DNA of 47,228 nucleotides, taken from the NCBI GenBank assembly GCA_902797035.1, contig CADBRH010000039.1, positions 1 to 47,228 on the forward strand, read 5' to 3'. This document shows, piece after piece, positions 40,391-41,485 of the stretch. The position numbers and the translations under genes were made by a program. The notes below the pieces were generated by a model. That model ran no database searches. It saw nothing but the letters and a program-made list of their open reading frames with translations, and was not told where the DNA came from. The stretch's first letter is position 1; every line of letters begins with the position of its first letter. Source of the DNA: an uncultured Bacteroidia bacterium. Lineage in GTDB: Bacteria > Bacteroidota > Bacteroidia > Bacteroidales > UBA932.

Positions 40391-41485
40391 TCATTGTTTT
40401 TTATAGATAGCGAACATGGCTGATCCGGAGCCGGACATGGAGGCGTACACGGCTCCAGAGTCGTAGAGGGATCGTTTGATGGCCGCGAGTTCGGGATGGG
40501 CCTTGAACACCGTCTCCTCGAAGTCGTTGACCAGCAACTCCTTCCATTCCTCCACAGGCCGCTTCAGGATGTTTTTAACGCGATGGTCTTCAAGGGGCAA
40601 GGGTGCCAAAACCGTCTCGCTACGCTCGACCTCACCGTCCGCTTCGCTCCCGGTCCCCCCTCTTAACGTGCCGAGGGTGACAGTGGTTTTGGCACCCTTC
40701 CCCTCGAAGGAATTGTTTGTCGCCCCACTATTCCCCTCGGCCTCGTAGAAACGAGGGGTTATGCCGCGGTAGGCTTCGGCGGTGGAGACGGAGACCCCTT
40801 CGGGGACGAGGACTCTGACCTCATAGCCGGAAAGGTCGATGTCAAAAGGCTCTAGAATCTCTCCCCTTCCGGTGCCGATCATGGGCCTGTTCCAAATGAA
40901 GAAAGCGCAGTCGCTTCCGAGGCGGGAGGCATATTCAGAAAGGCATTCGTCGGGAAGGTCGAGGCCGCATAGCTCGTTCAGGGCCTTGAGGGTAAAGGCA
41001 GCGTCGGCGGAACCGCCGCCAAGGCCTGCCCCCACGGGTGCCTTCTTTTCCAGGAATATCTTGACTGGCGGCAAATCGAAGTCCTTGGCCAGCAGGAAGT
41101 ACGCCTTGGCGCAAAGGTCTTCGAGAGGATCCCAGTCCACACCTCCCTCCCGGGCTATGGTGATCATCAGTTTCCCGTCTTCCGATATTCCCTGAGCCAA
41201 ATCAAAGCAGTTTCCCTGAGGAGCGGTCGGCCTTAGGCGATACTCAGCCGCAGCTAGGCGAGGATGGACTTCGCCGTGGTCGAGCCGCTCCTCAGGATAA
41301 GGATTCCCGTAGCGAGCGAAAAGAGCCGCGGAGGTTCGGCTATAGTCGTCGCCGGTGATGACCTCAAGAGTGTCGCCATATTCATGGCAAGGGACGAACA
41401 GCGTCTCGATGTCATGGTAGCCGTCCGGTCTCTTGCGCAAGACATGGAGCCCGAGATTCAATTTGACGTTTGTCCGTAGGATCAT
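40391..41485 (-). CDS. ispE: 4-diphosphocytidyl-2-C-methyl-D-erythritol kinase with two in-frame insertions
   Basis: The 364-residue GHMP kinase phosphorylates CDP-methylerythritol in the MEP isoprenoid pathway. Motifs are KLNLGLHVLRKRPDGYHDIETLF at the N terminus, the ATP loop APVGAGLGGGSADAAFTLK (149-167), SDCAFFIWNRPMIGTGRGE and the end motif AVYASMSGSGSAMFAIY. The family is usually about 260-290 residues. The excess falls in two places, near residues 61-96 and 245-300, both of which coincide with hairpin-forming DNA. The first residues NPYPEERLDHGEVHPRLAAA and the second FEGKGAKTTVTLGTLRGGTG have no family counterpart I recognise. The frame and catalytic motifs are intact, so the enzyme may still function. 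ATG overlaps the sufD stop. Confidence 0.93.
   Translation of the reverse strand: MILRTNVKLNLGLHVLRKRPDGYHDIETLFVPCHEYGDTLEVITGDDYSRTSAALFARYGNPYPEERLDHGEVHPRLAAAEYRLRPTAPQGNCFDLAQGISEDGKLMITIAREGGVDWDPLEDLCAKAYFLLAKDFDLPPVKIFLEKKAPVGAGLGGGSADAAFTLKALNELCGLDLPDECLSEYASRLGSDCAFFIWNRPMIGTGRGEILEPFDIDLSGYEVRVLVPEGVSVSTAEAYRGITPRFYEAEGNSGATNNSFEGKGAKTTVTLGTLRGGTGSEADGEVERSETVLAPLPLEDHRVKNILKRPVEEWKELLVNDFEETVFKAHPELAAIKRSLYDSGAVYASMSGSGSAMFAIYKKQ
40588..40709. repeat. Long palindromic insertion in ispE (element 2)
   Basis: AAGGGTGCCAAAACC (40599-40613) and GGTTTTGGCACCCTT (40685-40699) are perfect inverted repeats. Pairing continues outwards, with one bulge and one mismatch, to 40588 and 40709, giving a stem of about 24 pairs around a 71-base spacer. 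The spacer carries further small repeats (TCACC 40632-40636 / GGTGA 40676-40680) and the string CTCGCTACG. It corresponds to ispE residues about 260-299. Confidence 0.9.
40733..40758. repeat. Small hairpin beside ispE element 2
   Basis: CCCCTCG (40733-40739) and CGAGGGG (40752-40758) form a 7-bp stem with a 12-base loop, 23 bases from element 2. It lies over ispE residues about 243-251 and may be part of the same inserted block. Confidence 0.65.
41215..41296. repeat. Palindromic insertion in ispE (element 1)
   Basis: CCTGAGGAGCGG (41215-41226) and CCGCTCCTCAGG (41285-41296) are perfect 12-bp inverted repeats around a 58-base spacer. The spacer contains a second stem, GGCGA (41257-41261) / TCGCC (41271-41275). 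It covers ispE residues about 64-90, inside the first region that is extra relative to the family. Confidence 0.88.

Follow-up and report, generated by a model that had tools for sequence, protein, structure and literature searches.

An in-frame hairpin in ispE of an uncultured Bacteroidia bacterium belongs to a multi-copy family of palindromic elements with locus-specific arms and a core found in both orientations

The hairpin in ispE and the loop that it encodes

The ispE gene in a 47,228-nucleotide stretch of DNA from an uncultured Bacteroidia bacterium (assembly GCA_902797035.1, contig CADBRH010000039.1; the window) contains a hairpin of 122 nt through which the reading frame stays open. 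The draft genome comprises 2.27 Mb in 113 contigs, of which the window is number 39. A reading made from the sequence alone likened the hairpin to the Rickettsia palindromic elements (RPEs), which insert into genes while keeping the frame, and suggested a mobile or replicated family of short palindromes. This raises the question which part of such an element is repeated, how its copies remain palindromic and how they come to lie within genes. The features of the locus are as follows.

40391..41485, minus strand: ispE (4-diphosphocytidyl-2-C-methyl-D-erythritol kinase), 364 aa, with GHMP_kinases_N at residues 126-198 and GHMP_kinases_C at residues 304-363 (Pfam)
40588..40709, no strand assigned: whole hairpin element, 122 nt, coding for residues 259-300 on the ispE strand
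40588..40613, plus strand: left arm, locus-specific, with one C more than the right arm (repeat search, arm alignment)
40685..40709, plus strand: right arm, the reverse complement of the left arm (repeat search, arm alignment)
40611..40691, minus strand: conserved family core (covariance model R1, 86.3 bits, E 7.8e-18)
40614..40630, no strand assigned: H1, small hairpin GTCTCGCTACGCTCGAC (sequence reading; alignment A1)
40634..40654, no strand assigned: H2, hairpin of variable length and sequence with base ACCG..CGGT (alignment A1, H2 list)
40658..40677, no strand assigned: H3 region CCCTCTTAACGTGCCGAGGG, the most conserved block (alignment A1)

The arms share a perfect block of 15 bp (AAGGGTGCCAAAACC / GGTTTTGGCACCCTT) and can be aligned over ~24 positions, with a single mismatch and a bulged C; an inverted-repeat search returned them as 19-nt arms (40595-40613 and 40685-40703) with 95% complementarity. 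Folding energies of the hairpin gave z values of -5.96 and -6.07 on the two strands, and none of 200 dinucleotide shuffles folded as well. Direct reading of the sequence and of its 364-aa open reading frame showed that the ispE frame is uninterrupted across the whole hairpin. The sequence-only reading, which had described a 15-bp perfect inverted repeat extended to about 24 pairs, a hairpin and a frame open through both arms, was correct on all these points. An automatic consensus structure of the core contains 11 pairs, and the two sides of H2 vary in step when the 31 copies of alignment A1 are compared by eye. Model R1, for which the window copy (L001) itself was among the 31 sequences used in building, matches the ispE core and nothing else in the window at E <= 1.

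IspE loci were searched in 81 genomes of the genus, 71 of which gave a hit; 30 loci were fetched and 29, including that of the window, were readable. The window protein has 57 residues between 'GI.PR' and the 'LREVL' helix (residues 245-303), where 19 of the 29 loci have four or five residues at the same spot, so that ~52 residues are extra. The insert itself was thereby borne out, at a size slightly larger than the 40-50 residues expected earlier. Pfam recognizes an N-terminal and a C-terminal GHMP kinase domain, with the insert between them. Alignments with two solved IspE structures end at residue 244 or 246, and one of them restarts weakly at residue 319. In the predicted structure of the window protein residues 251-294 have pLDDT values below 50, against a mean of 82.9 and values of at least 90 for 246 of the 364 residues. 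On this prediction the insert forms a disordered loop that separates the two kinase domains, in keeping with the surface loop considered before.

The core is intact in five of the 29 IspE loci (window, G049, G088, G017 and G065) and a remnant is found in a sixth (G058), in which one arm is left, in frame. Five relatives thus carry the palindrome or a remnant of it, and the situation in which relatives all have the same region without a palindrome does not apply. The core lies one way in the window and G049 and the opposite way in G088, G017 and G065, with the frame open in all. Between the window and G017 common arms (identity 0.88) surround a core that is inverted (0.92). A second in-frame insert was observed in the window ispE at 41215-41305 (residues ~62-92), where the predicted structure is of low confidence at residues 76-87. 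Elsewhere in the genome 8 further matches to this second insert reach E <= 0.001. Its translation is similar to GRxHSRFAAAE inserts found in G017 ksgA (L248) and in L020, a citrate-lyase-accessory-like gene by motif reading.

Copies, host genes and losses

Matches at E <= 1e-5 were found at 24 other places in the same genome, which makes the element a repeat family and not a chance structure. The core covariance model gave 35 matches in this genome and, at E <= 0.001, matches in 47 of the 81 genus genomes, weaker in many of them; the strongest genomes (G000, G017, G049, G058, G065 and G088) contain 19 to 35 matches each. By a less sensitive DNA search 5 of 41 genomes had the element, and 16 genomes that represent other families in the order had none. 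The core pattern matches at least 112 stretches in a public collection of 84,980 species genomes. The 80 matches listed are all from Bacteroidales or Bacteroidia, with 20 isolates, and come from rumen or omasum where a source is stated; RUG in the genome names denotes rumen genomes. The DNA of the 32 loci beyond these 80 was used in the empty-site, subfamily, co-change, frame, orientation and final core comparisons. Viral contigs, searched with one pattern, and plasmid and phage records, searched with one core, gave no match. A description of such a family in Bacteroidales was not found in the open-access literature, a scope outside which most subscription journals lie. All 80 listed records are assemblies of uncultured bacteria, which would agree with a metagenome assembly artefact, but the same structure recurs in 20 differently named isolates and at orthologous loci with frames kept open, and an artefact is extremely unlikely.

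The element is a multi-copy family in which the repeated part is the loop or core of ~80 nt (40611-40691), the arms not being common to the copies. Other copies thus abound here and in relatives, and the family proposed from the sequence alone stands, with the correction that it is the loop, not the palindrome's arms, that is replicated. In four loci (L022, L025, L033 and L035) the core is broken between H2 and the last block by a longer GC-rich sequence, and these appear as nested or composite elements.

For 26 of the 27 copies compared in the window genome the own right arm is the best partner of the left arm; the 27 are those of 32 BLAST places that had a core marker and enough flank. Across all sources the same is true of 94 among 98 non-redundant copies (126 copies minus 3 without a left marker and 25 near-duplicates or copies too short), with a mean pairing score of 36.8 for the own partner versus 11.6 for other loci and 22.9 bases matched on average. 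Arm identity between non-orthologous pairs of the same type (n = 3379) was 0.46-0.49 in every core-identity class from 0.5 to 1.0, where chance gives 0.34, and was no higher even at core identities of at least 0.99 (128 pairs), although these core identities are partly high because loci were fetched by exact core pattern. The excess over chance consists of a weak purine/pyrimidine consensus and of subfamilies with a common inner part of the arm. In one subfamily of 23 copies pairing drops to background ~16 bases past a fixed point, which indicates that the arms have a more or less constant length but a variable sequence. A search for terminal inverted repeats common to the copies found none, apart from the shared inner part in some subfamilies, and a strongly conserved element end was not seen in the copies compared either. 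Even at one locus in different species near-identical cores may be flanked by unrelated arms (L007 versus L104, L116 versus L125). L116, L125, L016 and L158 represent a single intergenic position in four species, upstream of the same gene each time; the four cores are near-identical except for the length of H2 in L125, the arms are very different and self-complementary, and the core of L016 is flipped relative to the other three.

Codon usage was scored on both sides of 176 non-redundant copies, obtained from 216 by dropping 19 near locus ends and 21 near-duplicates. Sixty-one of these lie inside genes in one open frame, and a single copy is open with differing frames. Between coding flanks on one strand a stop was found in copies with the same frame (14) or a different frame (13); the remaining copies are located between opposite strands (22), beside coding sequence on one side (56) or beside none (9). 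The ratio of 61 to 1 speaks for the in-frame palindrome seen in the sequence-only reading, and the reading as an RPE-like in-frame family is supported. None of the 61 in-frame copies has core type I (with GCCGCGAAGCGGC); all belong to the type II kind, of which they form 61 of 115 copies. Relative to the gene 36 in-frame copies have one orientation and 25 the other, and mainly two codon phases are used per strand and orientation. In an earlier, smaller set of 39 open reading frames the host genes included ispE, miaA, the linker of an E2 acyltransferase, ksgA, GH3, GH92, aldehyde dehydrogenase, IspH and methionine synthase. Pfam backs ispE, ksgA, miaA, E2, a 4Fe-4S protein and GH92 (6 of 6 tested); the other names are motif readings.

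Sites at which a relative lacks the core and both arms were found at three loci (L136 versus L160, L166 versus L146 and, less cleanly, L298 versus L170). Since other species carry the element at two of these, loss is as likely as gain there. At L190 the core and one arm have been deleted between 8-bp direct repeats (CGTCCCCG) and the remaining arm is in frame; together with the single in-frame arm in ispE of G058 this indicates that the element can leave new loops behind. The miaA locus and the short private outer arms had suggested that the arms arise when the target is duplicated in inverted form, an idea that was considered and set aside; it is countered by the three sites lacking core and arms, with loss as likely as gain at two of them.

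In other species unrelated inserts, palindromic or repetitive, occupy the loops of ispE, miaA and ksgA. A family B in the miaA loop (L223, L227 and L232) has a common core (CGTGCTACCCCCCTGGCCGCAGGGGG..GGGAGGGGTT) and locus-specific arms, and follows the same plan. In ksgA a short in-frame insert (TGTCATTCTGAGCGAAGCGAAGAATCT, coding for PSVILSEAKNL) occurs in L246 and L247 at the loop where the window species has the hairpin element, and a repeat coding for TPLHPxGGLRGVPLRH adjoins the element in L244 and L245, twice close together in G049. Two more palindromes are present in ispE of L071 and L072. The motif GAGCGAAGCGA was noticed by eye in H1 and H2 of the core and across unrelated palindromic families. 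It seems that several in-frame palindromic families occur in the genus.

Compensated arms, inverted cores and their possible origin

The arms diverge between species in step. In 46 disjoint orthologous comparisons, comprising 915 paired columns, 779 columns were unchanged, 49 had changed on one side, 11 on both sides otherwise, and in 76 both sides had changed to another Watson-Crick pair; ~4.5 such columns are expected if the sides change independently, a ratio that is somewhat inflated because only alignable arms were counted and alignment favours paired columns. Loss of arm identity with age was not found among these alignable arms. Such compensated changes may reflect a functional RNA structure (a processing site, an attenuator or a stability element) in which selection on the RNA keeps the arms paired. 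The joint change of the two sides of H2, seen by eye, would agree with this, as would the apparently stronger conservation of the core: among 27 orthologous pairs identity was 0.888 for the 29-nt core block, 0.799 for the flanks and 0.716 for the arms, the first value being biased upward because copies were picked by a core pattern allowing five errors. In addition, arm mismatches on the model strand of noncoding copies are G-T in 56 and A-C in 30 cases, a bias that may reflect a degree of selection for pairing on one strand. However, on the coding strand of in-frame copies G-T (19) is not preferred over A-C (21). RNA selection should favour G-U and copying at the level of replication should not, and the coding mismatches therefore speak for copying. 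Furthermore, the double changes outnumber the one-sided ones, in-frame copies occur both ways round, loci flip between species, and in 9 loci nothing scored above the threshold of an Rfam family (one chance sub-threshold match was obtained elsewhere). We regard an RNA function of this kind as unlikely.

Forty-one loci have at least two copies when matched by both flanks, and 23 of the 41 hold both orientations of the core. The orthologous pairs comprise 114 in the same orientation and 107 flipped (113 and 107 between genomes only, from the same loci); when a match by either flank was accepted, in a smaller set, the counts were 74 and 55. As pairs within a locus are not independent, the locus count of 23 of 41 is the safer number. 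In flipped pairs the asymmetries of the arms go with the element in 92 of 107 and with the locus in 11 of 107, the rest being ties, a pattern that fits inversion within the outer arms rather than re-insertion. An alignment of one locus (locus D) has the spacer inverted between similar arms.

Two other explanations of the mixed orientations were weighed. Repeated independent insertions into the same permissive loops, in random orientation and with no inversion, would agree with the unrelated inserts that the ispE, miaA and ksgA loops bear in other species, and with the unrelated arms at some orthologous loci. This is possible but doubtful, as in flipped pairs the arms match with the element far more often than with the locus (92 versus 11), and as the ispE copies of the window and G017 have common arms around an inverted core. 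A site-specific recombinase that flips the core on purpose, as in phase variation, would account for an orientation near 50:50 at orthologous loci. The arms, which would be its necessary binding place, share little sequence between loci, however, and such a system is very unlikely.

Template switching between inverted repeats has been described, for coding genes too, to homogenize arms and invert spacers (passages of PMC8604942 and PMC8794818). Arm homogenization and spacer inversion are the two odd features of the present family, and pairing and flips are on that ground taken as products of replication. We propose a non-autonomous palindromic element, similar to RPEs, which would be kept palindromic and flipped by template switching during replication, and we give this reading a probability of about 0.6; we infer it from patterns between species. 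A hairpin would land at a locus, and gene-breaking copies would be purged so that in-frame copies remain in loops and linkers. Once the hairpin is in place, DNA polymerase would switch template from one arm to its partner when the locus is replicated. Some switches would copy one arm onto the other, so that arms drift and stay complementary, and a switch across the loop would leave the core inverted; slippage would delete the core and might leave an in-frame scar. Arm pairing would then need no cellular function, and the spread of copies would be a matter of mobility.

Several observations do not sit easily with replication template switching. The excerpted results of a yeast template-switch study give spacer inversions as substitutions of 2-5 bp, far below the 80-nt core. 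The core seems more conserved than its flanks, although the value of 0.888 is biased upward. Unrelated arms around near-identical cores at some loci would be explained equally well by repeated insertion. In covariance-model coordinates, the least biased of the core-identity comparisons, identity is 0.873 for orthologous (39 pairs) and 0.874 for non-orthologous cores (3509 pairs), so that the core is either constrained everywhere or exchanged between loci; this equality is not explained by the template-switch model. It would follow if the loop alone spreads and its core is refreshed across loci, orthologous cores then being no more alike than others. In that tentative and rather improbable scheme the stem would be made anew and kept matched by host replication at every site, around a core that flips freely and can be read as protein in either direction.

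The mobility of the proposed palindromic element may be sought in Y1/HUH (RAYT-like) transposases, which would spread single-stranded hairpins as in REP elements. The one mobility protein searched for was Y1_Tnp. A Y1_Tnp gene lies ~1 kb from the ksgA copy and another ~4 kb from the C58 copy, and on its model strand the core repeats GCGAAGC, an unusually stable DNA mini-hairpin. Two of the three Y1_Tnp genes in the window genome are within ~4 kb of a copy. One of these is explained by synteny, since the Y1 gene near ksgA lies near ksgA in G049 and G088 too, and that gene has its own, different flanking repeats. Moreover, Y1_Tnp occurs in 64 of the 81 genus genomes whether the element is present or not. 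Spread by these transposases is quite unlikely, and a linked Y1 transposase does not stand out as a specific partner given its presence in 64 of 81 genomes. In another locus (L041, 1429-2313) a Y1 transposase gene was observed between two similar copies of its own palindromic repeat (~1260-1375 and 2320-2432), which is unlike the hairpin element.

Comparison with known palindromic elements

REP elements are described as palindromes of 20-40 bp with GTAG or CGTC tags (PMC3733652, in part). The present element shares with REP/RAYT systems that it is a short multi-copy palindrome in a genome with Y1 transposases, but it measures ~120-150 nt (core ~80 nt, arms ~25 nt) and has no specifically linked RAYT. 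An assignment to the REPs was dropped on account of its size and the lack of a specific Y1 partner. Enterobacterial RU-1/ERIC, RU-2 and RU-3 and bacterial MITEs are portrayed in passages of PMC2229807 and PMC2759123 as short non-autonomous palindromes, some of them fused in frame; MITEs have terminal inverted repeats and often target duplications (PMC2229807, same passages). Unlike in MITEs, terminal repeats common to the copies were not found in the hairpin element. The BrickBuilt elements and MITEs of Porphyromonas gingivalis, likewise repeats in Bacteroidales and compared here by description, are treated as intergenic and non-coding in the available text of PMC5771137. In nematomorph mitochondria perfect inverted repeats of up to 284 bp within coding genes are described as actively maintained; unlike for the hairpin element, a shared core is not mentioned in the excerpt of PMC6649704.

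The homogenization of arms and the inversion of spacers resemble template-switch (quasipalindrome) mutation, which in the passages of PMC8604942 and PMC8794818 is described for repeats in general and not as upkeep of a repeat family. The present family offers a natural many-copy record of palindromes that evolve within genes and outside them, with co-evolving arms, inverting loops and in-frame scars that turn into loops of the protein. With it the survival of coding palindromes becomes testable, as does the question whether replication alone can yield the compensatory stem changes that are usually read as proof of RNA function. The data suggest several such families in this group of Bacteroidales.

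The closest resemblance is to the RPEs and the Wolbachia palindromic elements, according to portions of PMC2229807, PMC3767692 and PMC10969869 multi-copy elements of ~100-150 bp located between genes and in frame in unrelated conserved genes. Like these, the hairpin element of 122 nt is a multi-copy palindrome that occurs in frame in unrelated protein genes and between genes. In contrast to RPEs, which are said in part of PMC6649704 to lose repeat identity with time, its diverging arms stay complementary; its terminal repeats are private to the locus, its core flips and it belongs to another phylum. The element would thus appear to work like RPEs, a likeness drawn from descriptions rather than from RPE sequences, and frequent in-frame palindromic elements also occur outside Rickettsia and related bacteria.
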